Below are positions 5,975 to 15,422 of a stretch of 64,000 bases of DNA, one piece after another. How positions within the stretch are numbered: the first letter of the stretch is position 1; each line of letters begins with the position of its first letter. The notes under the pieces are model-generated. The model was not told the origin of the DNA. It worked only from the letters and a program-made list of their open reading frames with translations, and did not search any database. The stretch comes from Halalkalicoccus jeotgali B3 (GTDB lineage Archaea; Halobacteriota; Halobacteria; Halobacteriales; Halalkalicoccaceae): positions 1,784,295-1,848,294 of the forward strand of contig NC_014297.1 in the NCBI RefSeq assembly GCF_000196895.1, written 5' to 3'. Position numbers and translations under genes: made by a program.

Positions 5975-6144
5975 TCGGGGATTCTATATAGCGCTATCCA
6001 GTTTAATGAGTATGTGATAATACAACATAAACTACCGCAAAAACGGTCGCGGATCGACCGACCCGTCCGAAACCGACCGCTCTCGGCGGACCCGCCACGA
6101 ACGGTGGCCTAAAATATAATTAGTTGTAATCAGAAGGGAGACTA
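5975..6144 (+). promoter_or_regulatory. AT-rich intergenic region with promoter for the HTH gene
   Basis: 170 bases between the alcohol dehydrogenase and the HTH gene. The part around 6000-6042 is AT-rich without an obvious reading frame. AAAATATAAT at 6111-6120 is a good TATA box about 25-30 bases from the ATG at 6145, consistent with a leaderless or very short-leader transcript. Confidence 0.5.
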
Positions 6145-6572: not shown

Positions 6573-8456
6573 CTAGATTTCGGTGATACGGGGGTACTCC
6601 TCGTCGAGGGCGGCGGCGTCTTCCGGCAGGAGCGCGACGACGATGTAGGGTGCGTACTGTTCGAGGTACTCGACGAGCGCGGCGATGCGTTCGGAATCGA
6701 GCGCTTCGAGGGAGTCGAGTAGCATGAACGGGACCCGTTCGTGGACGTCGTGGACGAGATACCCCGCGAGTGCGACGATCAAGCCGGTGACCTCGCGTTC
6801 GCTCTCGCTCAGGTGGGCAATCGAGTCCTCGTAGGTCGCGCCCGACTCCGTGCTTCGCGTGACGTGGAGTTCGAAGGTCGCCTCCTCGCCGGTCGCGAGG
6901 CGCTCGATCCAGATCCGTTCGAGGTTGGCGTATTCGAGCAGTCCCAGCACGGTCTCCATCTGTTCGTTGAACGCGCCGATGGCCTCGCGCTCGAGGCGCT
7001 CGATTCGGGTGCGCTGTTCTTCGAGTTCGTCGTTGATCTCCTCGCGGCGGTCGTTCAGTTCGGAGCGTTCGGCCAGTCGGTCTTCGATCTCCGCGAGGTC
7101 CTCGTCGATGGTGTCGAGTTCGCGCCGGAGGCGGTCGCGTTCGACCTCGTTTCGCGTCACGGCCTTCTGGGCGTCGAGGGTCTCGTCCTCGTCGGCTTCG
7201 ATCTCGGTTTCGAGGTCCTCGACCGTCGATAGCAGCGAGTCGCGCCGTTTTTCGAGTTCGTCGATGCGATCGCGGCGCTCCGTGAGCTCCGTTTCGAGGT
7301 CCGAGAGGGTGCGTTCGAGCCGGTCGTGTTCCTCGCGGCGCTGTCGGTGCTCGGTGCGCTCCTCGGTCAGCGATTCGAGCCGCGTGGAGACCTCGTTTCG
7401 CCGCTCGACTTTCTCCGTTCGGAGGTCGCGGAGGCTCGACAGCGTCTCCTCGATCCGCCCGGTCTCGACGCTGCTCCCGCAGGTCCAGCAGGTGACCTCG
7501 CGGTCGGCGAGCAGTCGGTCGGTGACCTCGCCCTCGTCTTCGCCGAGCAGTTCGGGATACTCCGCGTCGACCATGTCCTCGTTGAACTGGATCACGGTCT
7601 GGAGCTGCGAGACCGTCTCGTCGAGCTCCCGCTTGCGTCCCCTGAGACGCTCGATCTCGCCCGCCAGGTCGTCGATCGCGTCGCTCTCGACGGTGAGATC
7701 CGACAGCTCGTCGCGTACCTCCTCGCGCTCGGTCTCGAGCGACTCGACGCTCGCGCGCTCGGTTTCGAGGTCGTAGGTCACGTCTTCGAGGTCGGTCTGG
7801 GCCGCCCGGAGCCGGTCGAATCGCTCGGATCCCTCCGTCTCCGTGTCCTCCTCGGCCAGCGCCTCCCGAGCCTCCGAGAGGCGCTCCTCGACGGATTCGA
7901 GTTCGTTCTCGAGGCGGGCGCGTTCCTCCTCGAGGGAGCCGTGTTCGCGCTCGGCCGCCGACAGGCTCGACAGCTCCTCGTCGATCCCGCGTTTCTCAGC
8001 CTGTAGGCGCTCGATAGTCGCCTCGATCTCGTCGACGTCGATGGGACGAAGGATGAGTTCGCGCAGATCGTCGCCGCGGACGACCGCCCGTCGGGCCTCG
8101 TTCGATTCGAGCAGGAACGCAAAGAGGTCCGCGAGCTGTGGCCGATCGAGGTACGGGTCGCCGCCGAACGCGATCGAGCCGTTCTCCCGCGAGAGCGTCC
8201 GGCTGTAGCTTCGGCCGCCGATCTCCATCTCGACGCGCCCGCGCTCGGCGTCGCCCTTTAGCGACGCGCGGTCGCTCCCCATGGCGGCCATGATCGCCTG
8301 CAGGAAGGAGGTTCGATTCGTCGCGTTCCGCCCGGCCAGAGCCGTCACGCCGGCGTCGAACTCGACGCTCGTGGCGTCGATCCCGCCGATCTTCTCGGCT
8401 CGAACGGTGACCGACTCACGTTCAGTGGTTCGCTCGGGCTCCTCGGTCGAGGACAT
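6573..8456 (-). CDS. Archaea-specific SMC-related protein (Rad50-like)
   Basis: 627 residues with an SMC/Rad50 layout: an N-terminal ATPase half, about 400 residues of Glu/Arg-rich coiled coil, and a C-terminal ATPase half. A CWTC motif in mid-coil (about residue 320) resembles a Rad50 zinc hook. The nucleotide motifs are degenerate: Walker A reads AGRNATNRTS (Lys replaced by Arg), and Walker B reads FMLLDSLEALDS (no Glu after the Asp). The signature region is HLSESEREVTGLIVALAGY. The ATG at 8456 is preferred over one at 8483 because of its distance from the TATA-like AATATGA near 8494. It lies next to an rdfA family gene on the same strand, a recurrent haloarchaeal pairing, and may act in DNA organisation or cell-shape control. 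Confidence 0.85.
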   Translation of the reverse strand: MSSTEEPERTTERESVTVRAEKIGGIDATSVEFDAGVTALAGRNATNRTSFLQAIMAAMGSDRASLKGDAERGRVEMEIGGRSYSRTLSRENGSIAFGGDPYLDRPQLADLFAFLLESNEARRAVVRGDDLRELILRPIDVDEIEATIERLQAEKRGIDEELSSLSAAEREHGSLEEERARLENELESVEERLSEAREALAEEDTETEGSERFDRLRAAQTDLEDVTYDLETERASVESLETEREEVRDELSDLTVESDAIDDLAGEIERLRGRKRELDETVSQLQTVIQFNEDMVDAEYPELLGEDEGEVTDRLLADREVTCWTCGSSVETGRIEETLSSLRDLRTEKVERRNEVSTRLESLTEERTEHRQRREEHDRLERTLSDLETELTERRDRIDELEKRRDSLLSTVEDLETEIEADEDETLDAQKAVTRNEVERDRLRRELDTIDEDLAEIEDRLAERSELNDRREEINDELEEQRTRIERLEREAIGAFNEQMETVLGLLEYANLERIWIERLATGEEATFELHVTRSTESGATYEDSIAHLSESEREVTGLIVALAGYLVHDVHERVPFMLLDSLEALDSERIAALVEYLEQYAPYIVVALLPEDAAALDEEYPRITEI

Positions 8457-8510
8457 ACCTGTTCGATCGGCCCGTTCGGCCATAAGCCTTCATATTCCCC
8501 GTACAGTCGG

Positions 8511-8533: not shown

Positions 8534-9151
8534 TCAGCGTCGACACGAACAGCCGCCCTCCTCGAGGAAGGTCGTCGCTGAGATCGAGCGACCACAGGCC
8601 TCACAGGTGACCTGTACGTCGACGAAAACGCCCGATATCCCGCCCGAGAGGGCGTCCCTGGCCGCCAGCCGGTCGATCGAGTCCTCGGTGACGACGCTCG
8701 TCCGGGTGATGAGCGCCCCGATCTTGTCGAGTTCGCGCTCGCGGCGTTCCTCCGGGGTGAGCTCGACACTCGAGGGATGGGTCGCCTCGCGGTACTCGGT
8801 CAGGTAGGTGTAGATCGACTGATGGGAGACGAAATCGGATTCGAGTTCCTCGATGTCGAGGCCGGCGCGGTCGAGTTCGCGGCGGGTCTGCTCGCGCATC
8901 CCCGCGCTCACGTCGTCGTCGCTGAGCAGGCGGTACCGGTTTTCGACCTCGCCGTCGAGCGAGCGCATCCCCGCCGCGTCCATCGCCGCCTCCAGCACGC
9001 GCCGGTTGAACAGGTCCGCGAGCGCACGGAGACTGTACTGTTCGCCGTCCTCCCCGGTCCAGTACGCCTCCAGTTGCGTGCCGAACCCGTCGAGACCGTA
9101 TTTTTCGATGACGCGTCCGACCTTCCCCTGGGATCGTCCTTCGCTGGACAT
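8534..9151 (-). CDS. rdfA: RdfA family protein (rod-determining factor-like)
   Basis: 205 residues matching the haloarchaeal RdfA family: GKVGRVIEKYGLDGFGTQLEAYW, then SLRALADLFNRRVLEAAM, GEVENRYRLLSDDDVSAGMR, and FVSHQSIYTYLTEYREA. A C-terminal zinc-finger-like segment (CEACG then CSC) ends the protein. One family member is known to influence rod versus disk shape in Haloferax volcanii; the molecular function is unknown. The start is set at MSSEGRSQ because the 12 upstream codons look non-conserved. The stop lies three bases from the palindrome at 8511-8530, and the SMC-related gene follows on the same strand, consistent with a functional pair. Confidence 0.82.
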   Translation of the reverse strand: MSSEGRSQGKVGRVIEKYGLDGFGTQLEAYWTGEDGEQYSLRALADLFNRRVLEAAMDAAGMRSLDGEVENRYRLLSDDDVSAGMREQTRRELDRAGLDIEELESDFVSHQSIYTYLTEYREATHPSSVELTPEERRERELDKIGALITRTSVVTEDSIDRLAARDALSGGISGVFVDVQVTCEACGRSISATTFLEEGGCSCRR

Positions 9152-9227
9152 TGCGCGGTAGTTCTCGCCCAACACCAATAAACACATGGCACCGTTCCGG
9201 GCGCGTTCGTCCCGCTCGGCGTAGCGC

Positions 9228-10945: not shown

Positions 10946-11219
10946 ACGGGATTGACGAATGCGCGGCGAGAAGTGCCTTTCGAGTCGCCGGCCGCGCCGC
11001 TGGAATCGCTCTCGCAGGGCGCCCGAACGCTTGAGGCCGTCCGCCGTCCGCCGTCCGCCGGGGCGGTGGCGAGTCATCCCGGACCGAAATCGTATATTTC
11101 GCCGCGGCTTGACTACTGAACGAATAGAACAGGGAACCCCAGTCTCCGGGAACGAAAAGACGCGGCCTCGTTCCGACGAACGATATATCAGAAAGAGGTT
11201 TATCCGATCAACGAGGCCC

Positions 11220-11477
11220 CTATCGGTCGCCCAACCGGGCTCGCTCGGCCCGTGCTTGATCCATAATGGCCTGCCGTATGTAGGCGGTCCTGTCGCGCGT
11301 CGATTCGATCTCGATGTCCTGAGAGTCGAGCGCTCGTTCGACGGCGATACCGGTCCGCAGAAGCTCTCGCATCCGCGCGCTCCGCGAGTCGCCGTACTCT
11401 AGCTCCGAGACGATCGCCTCGTAGAGTTCCCGGTCCTCCTCGTCGTCGGAGAAGTGAACACCGATCGACTGGATCAT
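11220..11477 (-). CDS. Small haloarchaeal protein, possible ribbon-helix-helix regulator
   Basis: 85 residues, highly charged, beginning MIQSIGVHFSDDEEDRELYE and containing YGDSRSARMRELLRTGIAVERAL, which looks like the helical part of a ribbon-helix-helix DNA-binding fold, then a long charged helix. The GC-rich, acidic coding style is that of the host chromosome, unlike the adjacent AT-rich island, so this gene probably marks the island boundary. Function unknown. Confidence 0.6.
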   Translation of the reverse strand: MIQSIGVHFSDDEEDRELYEAIVSELEYGDSRSARMRELLRTGIAVERALDSQDIEIESTRDRTAYIRQAIMDQARAERARLGDR

Positions 11478-11609
11478 ATTCTTTCTACGAATCGCGCTAG
11501 GTCAAACACCCCGTCACGGGTATTGGAGCCCAACCCTTCGTCCATCTCTTACAGTAATATAATTTATATTTCAGTTGCATCGTAACAGTCATTTTCCTAC
11601 ACTGTTTAT

Positions 11610-12503
11610 TTGTATATATGTATGGACCCTACTGATGAGACACGCATAATGGATGGTGAATGGGCCAAACTGAGACAAGAAGTATTATCAAGAGATACAC
11701 ATCAGTGTGTAAATTGCGGCTCATCAGAGGAACTTGAAGTTCATCATGTAGTACCTATTAATGATTTTGGTACAAATAAAAAATCGAATCTAGCAACTCT
11801 CTGCTCACGCTGCCACTATTCCGCACACAGTAAAGAATCTGCAGGAGATAAGAAGGACCGGCCAAAGAATGTGAGATGGACTCCGTCTCGCGTAGACATG
11901 TCTAATTTTATTAATAGCGTACAGCACCCTCTTAAGAAAGCTATCGCATCAACAGTTGTCAAGACTGGAATTGGAGTTGGTGAGTTATGCAATTTAACTG
12001 TAGATGATGTATATTTGACCAAGGAGTGGACAGCACGACCATTTTACCAAGAACGTCCAGACTGGCTTACGGCAAATATAGCAGCCCTTCGCGTACGGAA
12101 TTCTTCAGCGGACCAAAACTACAATATTCGAAGAGACAGAGAGCATAACTCAGTTATCCCAATAGACAACGAATTGCATCAGGCCTTAGCACAATGGATG
12201 GCACTCCGTCCAGATGCTCACGACTCTCAGCCATTCTTTATGAGTACCTCCAATTGGGGTGATCCCCTATCTCCAGATTCAATCCATCATATTATTGAAT
12301 CTAGTGCAAAGCCTCTTGGCATGCATAACAAGGGACAGGAATTGGAAAATCTGACTCCATATACCTTAAGACATTTCTTTATTGAGCGATTCCGAGGTAA
12401 GGCTACTGTTAGAGAGTATATATTAGGCCATTTTTCAGCGAACTCTATGCCACTTAGTGATATAGCTTCTCATTATCAAGAGGAGATTTTTACAATTACA
12501 TAA
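11610..12503 (+). CDS. HNH nuclease domain fused to a degenerate tyrosine recombinase domain
   Basis: 297 residues. Residues about 20-75 form an HNH zinc-finger nuclease module: CVNCGSSEELEVHHVVPI, then N...LCSRCHYSAH. Residues about 100-297 are homologous to the catalytic domain of the integrase two genes downstream (HPLKKAIASTVVKTG, SVIPIDNELHQALAQWMALRPD, LTPYTLRHFF). Key recombinase residues are changed: the first catalytic Arg of TGIRVGEL is Gly here (TGIGVGEL), and the His of HxxR is Tyr (PYTLR). The usual SAM-like core-binding domain is replaced by HNH. Codon use is AT-rich, unlike the host. In-frame ATGs at 11622 and 11649 are alternative starts. The role is unknown; it could be a DNA-binding accessory or nuclease of an integrative element. 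Confidence 0.8.
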   Translation: MYICMDPTDETRIMDGEWAKLRQEVLSRDTHQCVNCGSSEELEVHHVVPINDFGTNKKSNLATLCSRCHYSAHSKESAGDKKDRPKNVRWTPSRVDMSNFINSVQHPLKKAIASTVVKTGIGVGELCNLTVDDVYLTKEWTARPFYQERPDWLTANIAALRVRNSSADQNYNIRRDREHNSVIPIDNELHQALAQWMALRPDAHDSQPFFMSTSNWGDPLSPDSIHHIIESSAKPLGMHNKGQELENLTPYTLRHFFIERFRGKATVREYILGHFSANSMPLSDIASHYQEEIFTIT

Positions 12504-12654
12504 TCTCTCTCTATAGTACTACTCCAGAATAGATGGAGCTATTTTCATCGAATTGGCCAGCAAAGTCCGGGGTAATATAGACCTTTGAATGTTGATTAAA
12601 ACCCTAATCGATGAATATAGGAACATTAATTGTCGAGAGATGATTACTATATCT

Positions 12655-13038
12655 ATGGCAAGTGAGGACGCGACAGAGCGAACCACCGTAAAGACATATG
12701 TCCCCAAATACCAAAAAGAAATCTGGAAAGAAGACGCGGAGGATTTTGATATGTCTCAGAGTGAATTTATACGAACAATGGTCCAAGCTGGTCGTCGTGG
12801 CTTCAATTTAGAACAGCCGAAGGATACTTCTTCGGACGCAAACCCCAGGGGTAATGGTGTGAAAGAAGGGGTGCTCAACGCTCTTCAAAACGAAGTCCAC
12901 ACGTGGGATGAACTCCTATCCAAAATGTCTGAGGGCATAGAGGATAGGTTAGAAGAGTCTCTTCAAGAATTACAAGAAAATAACCGTATTCAATACAGTG
13001 GACGGCTTGGTGGATACAAGATTGTCGATAATGAATGA
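12655..13038 (+). CDS. DUF5805-like DNA-binding protein paired with integrase
   Basis: 127 residues. The N-terminus ERTTVKTYVPKYQKEIWKED and FDMSQSEFIRTMVQAGRRGF fit a ribbon-helix-helix type fold of the DUF5805 kind that recurs beside haloarchaeal integrases. The C-terminal ~60 residues (GVLNALQNEVHTWDELLSKM ... LQENNRIQYSGRLGGYKIV) look like a winged helix. The ATG at 12655 is preferred over 12589 by homology. The stop overlaps the integrase start as ATGA (13035-13038), so the two are translationally coupled, and this protein is probably the integrase's regulatory or accessory partner. Base composition is AT-rich. Confidence 0.8.
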   Translation: MASEDATERTTVKTYVPKYQKEIWKEDAEDFDMSQSEFIRTMVQAGRRGFNLEQPKDTSSDANPRGNGVKEGVLNALQNEVHTWDELLSKMSEGIEDRLEESLQELQENNRIQYSGRLGGYKIVDNE

Positions 13039-14090
13039 AGAAAATCGGTTTTAAGATGGTAAACAATGAGCAGAAGAATGACCTAGTATCCTACTTCCTT
13101 AAAGACATGAAATACCATGGGCGAAGTGAACGAACTCGACGTTGGTATGGCCGAGTATTGCGGCAGTTTGAAGATTTTGTACTATCTCAAGGAGAAAAAA
13201 TTGATTCCATTCAGGAAGCAACCTCTCGACAGTGCTTGAGATGGTTGCATATGCTCCGCGAAGAACATTCAACAGGTACAATTGCTACATACGCGTCCTG
13301 TATTAATCGGTTCTATACGTACATGATCTCTATCGACATAGTTGATCGAAATCCAATGAACGTCGTTATGGAAGAGATGAATGAAAGCATAGAAAGCGAC
13401 CCAGAACGGCGGGATATTTCGATTGCTGAGATGAGATCGTTCATTAGGAACATTACCCATCCATTAGATCGAGCAATTATTACAACCTTTCTGAAAACAG
13501 GAATACGAGTTGGGGAATTAGTCAATCTTGACCTACGTGATTTGAATATCAATATCGAATATACAAACTTCAGTAACCAACCGCAATGCCGACCCCAGAT
13601 TACACACGAGTCGAATAGTATATATATAACAAAAGACATATCTTATAAAGATACCATAAACGGAGAAAAAAGATTGGCATCGAATAAAAGGAAGCGTTCT
13701 ACTATTATTCCTGTAGATGAGGAATTGCAATTCGAACTTGAGCGTTGGCTAGCGATTCGACCAGATTCAATTACGACAGCGCAACCACTTTTTCTCAATG
13801 TGAATGATTCTTGGGGGAAGCGGCTCACACCTTCCATCATTAGGTCAATAATAAAGAAACATGCTCAGAGAAGAGAGTGGTACCAGGAAGGAGGTGACGC
13901 GACTCAAAACGTCACGCCACATTACTTCCGCCATTTCTTCACCACCCATCTCCGCAACGCCACCGGCGAACGGGGAATCGTGAAGTACCTCCGTGGGGAT
14001 GTCGCCGACGACATCATCGACACCTATACCCATAACTGGGGGAATAACGTCCGTGAGACGTACGAGCGGAGCATCTACCGCTTGTTGTAA
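13035..14090 (+). CDS. Tyrosine recombinase/integrase
   Basis: 351 residues. The N-terminal ~100 residues are a SAM-like core-binding domain (YFLKDMKYHGRSERTRRWYGR). The catalytic domain has KTGIRVGELVNL (first Arg), a Lys-rich hairpin region, VTPHYFRHFF (His-x-x-Arg) and a C-terminal ETYERSIYRLL that supplies a candidate nucleophilic Tyr. The usual LGH box reads LRGD, as in other haloarchaeal integrases. The start overlaps the upstream gene by 4 bases. Composition changes abruptly near 13890: upstream is AT-rich, while the last ~200 bases are GC-rich with host-like codons, so the gene looks mosaic. Confidence 0.88.
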   Translation: MKKIGFKMVNNEQKNDLVSYFLKDMKYHGRSERTRRWYGRVLRQFEDFVLSQGEKIDSIQEATSRQCLRWLHMLREEHSTGTIATYASCINRFYTYMISIDIVDRNPMNVVMEEMNESIESDPERRDISIAEMRSFIRNITHPLDRAIITTFLKTGIRVGELVNLDLRDLNINIEYTNFSNQPQCRPQITHESNSIYITKDISYKDTINGEKRLASNKRKRSTIIPVDEELQFELERWLAIRPDSITTAQPLFLNVNDSWGKRLTPSIIRSIIKKHAQRREWYQEGGDATQNVTPHYFRHFFTTHLRNATGERGIVKYLRGDVADDIIDTYTHNWGNNVRETYERSIYRLL

Positions 14091-14136
14091 GTAATCACTG
14101 TCGCCCTCATACGGTCATAAATCGGGTGTCGCTACA

Positions 14137-14195
14137 TGAAATTCGACACGCACGCCGACCGTACGTATTACTTCTGACATATAAATCGAATTTCA
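14137..14195. repeat. Inverted repeat downstream of integrase
   Basis: TGAAATTCGA (14137-14146) and its exact reverse complement TCGAATTTCA (14186-14195) are separated by 39 bases in the 138-bp gap between the integrase and IclR genes. They are 13 bases from the palindromic site at 14208-14227. They could be integrase arm-binding sites or a transcriptional terminator/regulatory structure. Confidence 0.5.
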
Positions 14196-14228: not shown

Positions 14229-14990
14229 CTACGCGTAGGTACTGTTGATCTCGATGACGTTGGCCGCACTCGTCGTCAGGGCGGGCAGTTCGTCGGTGTA
14301 CCACTCGCCGGTCATCCGGCTCTTCGGGCCCGAAACGCTCACCGCGCCGAGTACATCGCCGTCGACGATGACCGGGGCGGCGATACATCGCAGTCCCTCC
14401 AGTCGTTCCTCGTCGTCGTACGCGTAGCCCTGTTCGCGAACCTCCTCGAGTTCGCCCAGCAACTGCTCGCGGTCGGTGATCGTGTTCGGGGTGATCCGAG
14501 GGAGGCCATGGCGGTCGAGGATCGACTCGACGCGTTCGTCGGGTAGGTGTGCGAGCATGGCCTTGCCGAACCCGGTAGTGTGAAGGTGAACCCGCTTTCC
14601 GGCGTGGGTGTCCATGTGGACGGCGTCGGCCCCCTTCGCCCGGTAGAGGAACACGCCCCGGCCGTGTTCTTCGACCAGCAAGTTCGCCATTTCGCGGGTC
14701 TCTTCGGCGAGTTTTTCGATCTCCGGCGGGCCGATAGTAGCGATCTGTCGGCGGTCACGTGCGTACTCCCCCAACTGGAGAAATCGCAACCCCACATCGT
14801 ACTCCGACCCGTGTTTGATGACGTATTCGTTTCGGCGGAGCGTCTGGAGGTGGTTGTGGACCGTGCTCTTGGGGAAGCCGAGGTGACTCGACAGTTCGGT
14901 CACACCCGCACCGTCGAGTGCCCGAAGGGCGTCGAGGATCAGAAAACTGGTTTCGGTCGCCCGCACCGTCGTCGGTTCGTCAGTCGACAT
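14229..14990 (-). CDS. IclR family transcriptional regulator
   Basis: 253 residues. The N-terminal winged helix-turn-helix reads RATETSFLILDALRALDGAGVTELSSHL followed by FPKSTVHNHLQTLRRNEYV. The effector domain contains FGKAMLAHLPDERVESIL and GLRCIAAPVIVDGDVLGAVSVSGP, both typical of IclR. Such regulators usually sense small organic acids and control adjacent catabolic genes. The start at 14990 is set by homology; further upstream codons are non-conserved. It is divergent from the CoA-ester lyase at 15423 and is the best candidate regulator of the carboxylate island. Confidence 0.9.
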   Translation of the reverse strand: MSTDEPTTVRATETSFLILDALRALDGAGVTELSSHLGFPKSTVHNHLQTLRRNEYVIKHGSEYDVGLRFLQLGEYARDRRQIATIGPPEIEKLAEETREMANLLVEEHGRGVFLYRAKGADAVHMDTHAGKRVHLHTTGFGKAMLAHLPDERVESILDRHGLPRITPNTITDREQLLGELEEVREQGYAYDDEERLEGLRCIAAPVIVDGDVLGAVSVSGPKSRMTGEWYTDELPALTTSAANVIEINSTYA

Positions 14991-15422
14991 GCCGTGATCT
15001 ATTCCACGGGGACTATTAGTTCTACAGGTCGGATAGGTGTTCAGATAGGGTGAACAATATCCTCTCGCGACGGGACACTCGCCGAGACGTACGGTGAAGC
15101 ACCGTTTATTCGGCCAGTCGGCTGTCGCGTTCGTCTGGGAAACACCACCTTTCTGCTCAGAGAATGATTCGTTCATTCTAGCCGAATACCGCCGACCGGC
15201 GAACCCGATCCGAATTCGGATCGGAATCGGATCAGAACCCCCACTAATTGTCGAATAATACACGTTCGTCCAAGAATAGAGTATAGTATTCATTGAATAC
15301 TTTTATCCGAGGCGTTCAATGAGACTGAATGCGTCGAACGCACTCGAAAAATGACGTTCTACCATGTTCCAGGGATATCTTTATGGGCCGGCCTCGTCCA
15401 GTACCGAACGGAGTGAACCAGC
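14991..15422. promoter_or_regulatory. Divergent control region between IclR and lyase genes
   Basis: 432 bases without a supported gene, containing three palindromes: AGAATGA-N5-TCATTCT (15161-15179), GATCCGAATTCGGATC (15207-15222, perfect) and GTATTCATTGAATAC (15286-15300). A TATA-like ATCTTTATG near 15376-15384 is suitably placed for a short-leader transcript of the lyase at 15423. The palindromes are candidate binding sites for the IclR protein; which one is used is unknown. Confidence 0.55.

Follow-up and report, generated by a model that had tools for sequence, protein, structure and literature searches.

A fusion of an HNH nuclease module and a degenerate Xer-like domain as a candidate selfish gene in the core DUF5805-recombinase locus of haloarchaea

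In Halalkalicoccus jeotgali B3, an HNH nuclease module is joined to a tyrosine recombinase domain that is a paralog of the integrase (Int) encoded downstream, and a DUF5805 gene lies between the two genes. What does a protein of this kind do beside an intact recombinase? The initial annotation of the window (the whole stretch of DNA analysed here, 64,000 nucleotides) proposed that nuclease activity may have replaced strand exchange and that the three genes could form a compact mobile or defence-like module. We compared the gene, its neighbours and the surrounding sites with those of other haloarchaeal genomes.

Domains and catalytic residues of the fusion

The frame from 11610 to 12503 is open without interruption. 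The initial annotation began at a TTG codon (11610); the ATG at 11622, which is at about the same position as the starts of the homologues, is the likelier start. The features of the fusion are as follows.

11622..12503, plus strand: fusion of an HNH module and a recombinase half predicted to be dead, 293 aa, ATG start
11655..11843, plus strand: HNH nuclease module, aa 12-74, CxxC..HH..N..CxxCH..H
11883..12500, plus strand: degenerate Xer-like catalytic domain, aa 88-293, with Arg-I replaced by Gly118 and the HxxR His by Tyr247

Residues 29-70 match the Pfam HNH family PF01844 (E=1.5e-12, 47.9 bits against a cut-off of 21.4) and the C-terminal part matches Phage_integrase PF00589 over the curated cut-off (E=1.6e-6). 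Pfam found a SAM-like core-binding domain in the downstream integrase only; the initial annotation had read the HNH module as replacing this domain. The closest solved folds to the predicted structure (AlphaFold, mean pLDDT 77.6) were archaeal XerA (5hxy and 4a8e), followed by XerH and Cre. The fusion is present as a single copy in the B3 genome.

The HNH residues had been described as intact, and we confirmed this: the PF01844 match is over its cut-off, and C29, C32, H41, H42, N56, C61, C64, H65 and H69 are invariant in eight homologues. The reported loss of the first catalytic Arg was also confirmed. The fusion has KTGIGVGEL as compared with KTGIRVGEL, this Gly sits on the catalytic Arg of XerA in a profile alignment with 5hxy, and in an alignment of fusions with integrases the position is Gly in every fusion protein and Arg in every Int. 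The HxxR His is Tyr in the B3 protein, as initially read. Across fusion proteins, however, it is Tyr, Val, Asn, Ser, Thr or Glu, and the Arg of HxxR is retained in most. In other words, of the two changes whose conservation was in question, the Arg-to-Gly change was general and the His was replaced variably. A third catalytic loss had been overlooked: the nucleophile block is missing, and the segment corresponding to IDTYTHNW of the integrase is a 6-residue gap in all fusions that extend that far. The C-terminal tail is retained, with an invariant Y285 and the pattern I/V-F/Y-x-L. It should be mentioned that pNOB8-type archaeal integrases read R..YxxR..Y (PMC8371274). Therefore, the His-to-Tyr change alone is no sign of a dead recombinase; what matter, as judged from the alignments, are the absent Arg-I and the absent nucleophile Tyr.

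Most fusion pairs are saturated in dS, and usable dN/dS ratios came from comparisons within family f8 only: in close pairs with estimable dS, the HNH half had ratios of 0.11-0.20 and the recombinase half had ratios of 0.13-0.16. The low ratios in both halves, together with the same fusion in independent species, rule out two genes merged by a sequencing error. The combination of an intact nuclease and lost recombinase catalysis, as read from the residues, is conserved throughout the family. Thus the fusion is a conserved protein with a recombinase chemistry predicted to be dead, and its recombinase half is plausibly a module that binds DNA or a recombinase.

The core DUF5805-Int locus and its 28-bp sites

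Int was found in 107 of 117 Halobacteriales genomes (E<=1e-60) and in 97 of 97 good genomes, mostly as one copy, and each of the 59 loci examined had a DUF5805 gene upstream of Int. The pair belongs to the chromosomal core of nearly all haloarchaea, usually as one copy, and its reading as a compact mobile or defence module is not supported. Nor is it a private set conserved beside the fusion, which joins this locus only in a minority. For the same reason, namely that the partner Int is core and usually single-copy, we rejected the ideas that Int is private to a small element and that the genes form an RIT-like element with three recombinases. The features around the fusion are as follows.

11178..11205, minus strand: left 28-bp recombination-type site GGATAAACCTCTTTCTGATATATCGTTC, a weak copy
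11220..11477, minus strand: orf85, a small protein inside the segment
11478..13900, no strand: foreign AT-rich tract
12589..13038, plus strand: DUF5805 protein, likely start 12655, C-terminal PF19121 (E=6.8e-23)
13035..14090, plus strand: int, encoding the core Xer-like tyrosine recombinase of haloarchaea, which retains Arg, HxxR and Tyr
14115..14142, plus strand: right 28-bp recombination-type site TCATAAATCGGGTGTCGCTACATGAAAT, located 28 bp 3' of int
14229..15293, minus strand: IclR-family regulator (PF01614); this right flank is conserved in the genus

The N-terminal part of the DUF5805 protein has a weak NikA-like match (E=0.045), from which we read it as ribbon-helix-helix-like. Against the XerA model NF040815, Int scored 117.5 bits (cut-off 220), and no match over this cut-off was found in B3 or its relatives, 31 genomes in all. 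Arch1, a group of Xer-like proteins with a short insertion that is specific to Halobacteria, may take the place of Xer (PMC8138268); given its haloarchaea-wide distribution, Int is probably a member of Arch1. In all aligned core haloarchaeal Ints, the His-III motif LGH of tyrosine recombinases is RGD (for example, at 13980-14060 in the window), followed by TYTHNW or TYTHDW, which is an unusual active-site feature.

All six congeners in the genus have Int adjoining the same IclR gene. On the left, orf85 has no Pfam match and is resident DNA, 87% identical in the congener G004. In many families, a conserved 300-aa gene adjoins the segment, at the DUF5805 end in some cases and at the Int end in others (L103 4281-5186, L106 7397-8323, L137 2772-3674). 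Its assignment as HisG was dropped because it has no Pfam match, and it was kept as an unnamed anchor.

A 28-bp motif with the consensus nnRTAAAYYRYATNYCGCTATAYCAAAT lies 0-180 bp 3' of int in 54 of 59 loci, and in 54 of 59 an inverted pair of such sites surrounds the DUF5805 and Int genes (the window at 11178-14142 and L044-L058, L092-L099 and L102-L141 carry the sites or segment). The matrix gave 124 matches above 23 bits in 843 kb and the reversed matrix gave none. In the window, the left site (19.3 bits with the right-site matrix) is in inverted orientation to the right site (27.5 bits), which is conserved in congeners. Both deviate at position 12 from an otherwise nearly invariant A, and they are identical to each other at 12 of 28 positions. 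These two sites may be decaying or adapting to a foreign Int. A third match, CATTAAACTGGATAGCGCTATATAGAAT (5981-6008, minus strand, 26.7 bits), lies about 0.6 kb away from the gene at 6573-8483, which is SMC/Rad50-like and adjoins a gene for the rod-determining factor RdfA (8534-9187).

In one two-flank comparison (G007 against G000 and G004), the segment of G007 was inverted relative to both flanks; between G007 and G004, flank homology on one side ends 92 and 36 bp from the sites. Most other flagged inversions were artefacts: they involved loci with two integrases, which had not all been oriented by the same copy. We read the DUF5805-Int locus as an invertible segment, in which recombination would take place at the 28-bp sites. 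Our literature search found nothing on the fusion, on DUF5805 or on an invertible Int locus in haloarchaea.

Distribution of the fusion and the foreign tract

Fusion copies were found in 15 of 392 Halobacteriales genomes and in 8 of 125 genomes of family f8, and the fusion is missing from about 96% of genomes with the same core locus. Outside the order, there was none in a 295-genome phylum sample at E<=1e-40. Single-sequence scans of genome-contig and viral-contig collections gave no relatives; the family emerged from whole-genome searches. Therefore the fusion, which might have been peculiar to B3, is a haloarchaeal family carried by independent species. Fusions form one clade (SH-aLRT 100) separate from the integrases, with some long branches. 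In about half of the carriers, the copy is broken (G129, G098, G065, G110, G334 and G132; truncated in G204, a remnant in G251).

The fusion is an optional passenger inside the core DUF5805-Int locus. In co-directional loci (B3, G041, G098, G110, G132 and G204), it lies between the left site and the DUF5805 gene. In G129, G153, G127, G337 and G334, the order is the fusion, a convergent foreign Int1 with DUF1, a resident DUF5805 gene without its N-terminal part, and Int2; the gene order of G644 is the same. The breakpoints in the resident DUF5805 genes coincide, and we do not claim a shared cut site from them because the linker is poorly alignable across families. In several genomes, the 3' ends of the fusion and Int overlap convergently.

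Solo copies also exist. In G340, the fusion is on a 56-kb, extrachromosomal-looking contig next to a ParA-like ATPase gene and shares 62% identity with the copy at the core locus of G658; in G170, the contig that carries it is one that IMG/VR lists as viral. The solo copy of G065 is decayed. In G114, the fusion is directly behind a DUF5805 gene near succinate dehydrogenase genes, with no Int (L053 8280-9579), and this arrangement suggests that DUF5805 can partner the fusion itself.

The tract at 11478-13900 has a GC content of 41.1%, as compared with 65.6% for the rest of the window, and it holds the fusion, DUF5805 and 80% of int. Its left end is directly after orf85 and its right end is inside int, at the codons for NVTPHYFRHFF; identity to congeners jumps there, at about 13,900. 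In the B3 int, the 5' part is xenologous and the 3' end to which it is joined is resident-like; in the tree, the product of int groups outside its genus. In f8 loci, Int1 beside the fusion forms a separate clade (SH-aLRT 99), and resident Ints mostly follow host families. In f6 loci, the fusion-linked Int alleles look resident. At the core locus, the flanks of the fusion are a foreign tract in B3 (G000), a foreign Int in f8 loci and a resident Int in f6 loci.

A proposed homing-type gene and its alternatives

We estimate a probability of about 45% that the fusion is a parasite of the core DUF5805-Int locus and behaves there like a free-standing homing endonuclease gene, as in intronless homing. 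With the same confidence, we propose that its product is an HNH nuclease that uses an Xer-like catalytic domain, dead for cutting and rejoining by the tyrosine route, as a targeting or docking half. The dead half would bind the 28-bp site, or dock on Int there, and the HNH half would nick or cut the allele without the gene. Repair from the gene-bearing copy would then install the fusion at the locus, along with the DUF5805 and int genes that it brings. The foreign tract that we observed would have ended where the DNA was similar enough, here at the conserved 3' end of int. Afterwards, the gene would decay, as the broken copies illustrate, and then be lost. Free-standing homing enzymes are described to cut at a distance and to co-convert flanks (PMC2988022).

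Several observations led us to this proposal. The HNH residues are invariant while the recombinase residues are consistently lost, and dN/dS is low in both halves of the f8 pairs. Presence is patchy and many copies are broken, which is the pattern that a homing gene should give. There is a foreign tract with a breakpoint inside int, with the B3 Int outside its genus and the f8 Int1 clade; the resident DUF5805 lacks its N-terminal part in six two-integrase loci; and fusions are also found on extrachromosomal-looking DNA (G340 and G170). However, co-conversion of int is inconstant, as judged from the resident-looking Ints of f6, and ordinary homologous recombination could be the source of the foreign tract.

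Moreover, the low dN/dS and the conserved tail residues equally fit a working partner of Int. An accessory factor of Int is the main rival to homing, although we consider it rather unlikely. At the 28-bp site, the dead domain would use its retained C-terminal helix to associate with Int. The HNH half would nick one strand or block exchange, tuning inversion of the segment, so that the protein would serve the locus and not itself. In the main clade, the fusion lies within the Int segment or adjoins it; this position, the convergent 3' overlaps and the DUF5805-fusion pair of G114 are in line with this idea, as is the tail, which corresponds to the C-terminal helix region by which XerA is controlled (PMC3646895). 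An accessory subunit is harder to reconcile with three observations: about 96% of genomes with this locus lack the fusion, about half of the carriers have it in decayed form, and some copies are away from the core locus.

Could the dead half instead recognise core or att sites when these arrive on plasmids, viruses or rival alleles, so that the HNH half destroys the incoming DNA? The intact HNH, the patchy distribution and the mobile-looking contigs of some copies would suit such exclusion of competitors. We regard it as improbable: PADLOC matches were weak and confined to the HNH, which gives the idea of a defence-like module no support either, no defence genes were seen adjoining the fusion, and the host's own genome bears the 28-bp sites. 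Slightly more improbable is a neutral relic without present function, hitchhiking with a horizontally acquired DUF5805-int allele. The many broken copies are what it would leave, but the intact f8 copies have dN/dS of 0.11-0.20 in both halves, the HNH residues are invariant across families and the B3 copy is intact.

Taken as a whole, our more tentative proposal, somewhat below an even chance, is that a dead Xer-type domain has been repurposed as the module that directs an HNH nuclease to DNA or to a recombinase, in a selfish gene which invades and replaces a core DUF5805-Xer-like recombinase whose locus is itself an invertible segment between inverted 28-bp sites. If this is true, it is a new route to a site-specific nuclease, in which the host's own recombinase domain, its chemistry lost, is joined to a cutter. 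A nearly universal haloarchaeal recombinase with two conserved inverted flanking sites and at least one inversion between relatives is worth study in its own right. It also offers a concrete gene and site for testing Xer functions in haloarchaea, whose recombinase scores below the XerA cut-off.

The fusion resembles free-standing HNH homing endonucleases, such as the Mob proteins of phage T4, in having an HNH nuclease with a separate DNA-binding half and in being patchy, decaying and intergenic with a foreign flanking tract. It differs from them in its proposed targeting half, which is a degenerate Xer-type catalytic domain, in its location at a core recombinase locus of archaea and in that its cutting is a prediction. 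The HNH half is similar to those of IscB and Cas9 (E=1.5e-15 with the IscB model; IscB chains were matched in the PDB). However, RuvC was not found in the fusion, and the likeness is limited to the HNH region and a short extension. The fusion shares a Tyr in place of the HxxR His with pNOB8-type integrases, which, in contrast, retain Arg-I and the nucleophile Tyr. Its recombinase half is related to Xer recombinases through the neighbouring Int and the XerA folds, but it is without Arg-I, the HxxR His, the nucleophile Tyr and a core-binding domain. Int itself is Xer-like and haloarchaea-wide, as is Arch1 (PMC8138268), and, like the recombinase of Xer/dif systems, it is a nearly universal, mostly single-copy chromosomal enzyme. 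Unlike archaeal XerA, it reaches only 117 bits against the cut-off of 220, and unlike Xer/dif, its locus has two inverted flanking sites and not one dif.
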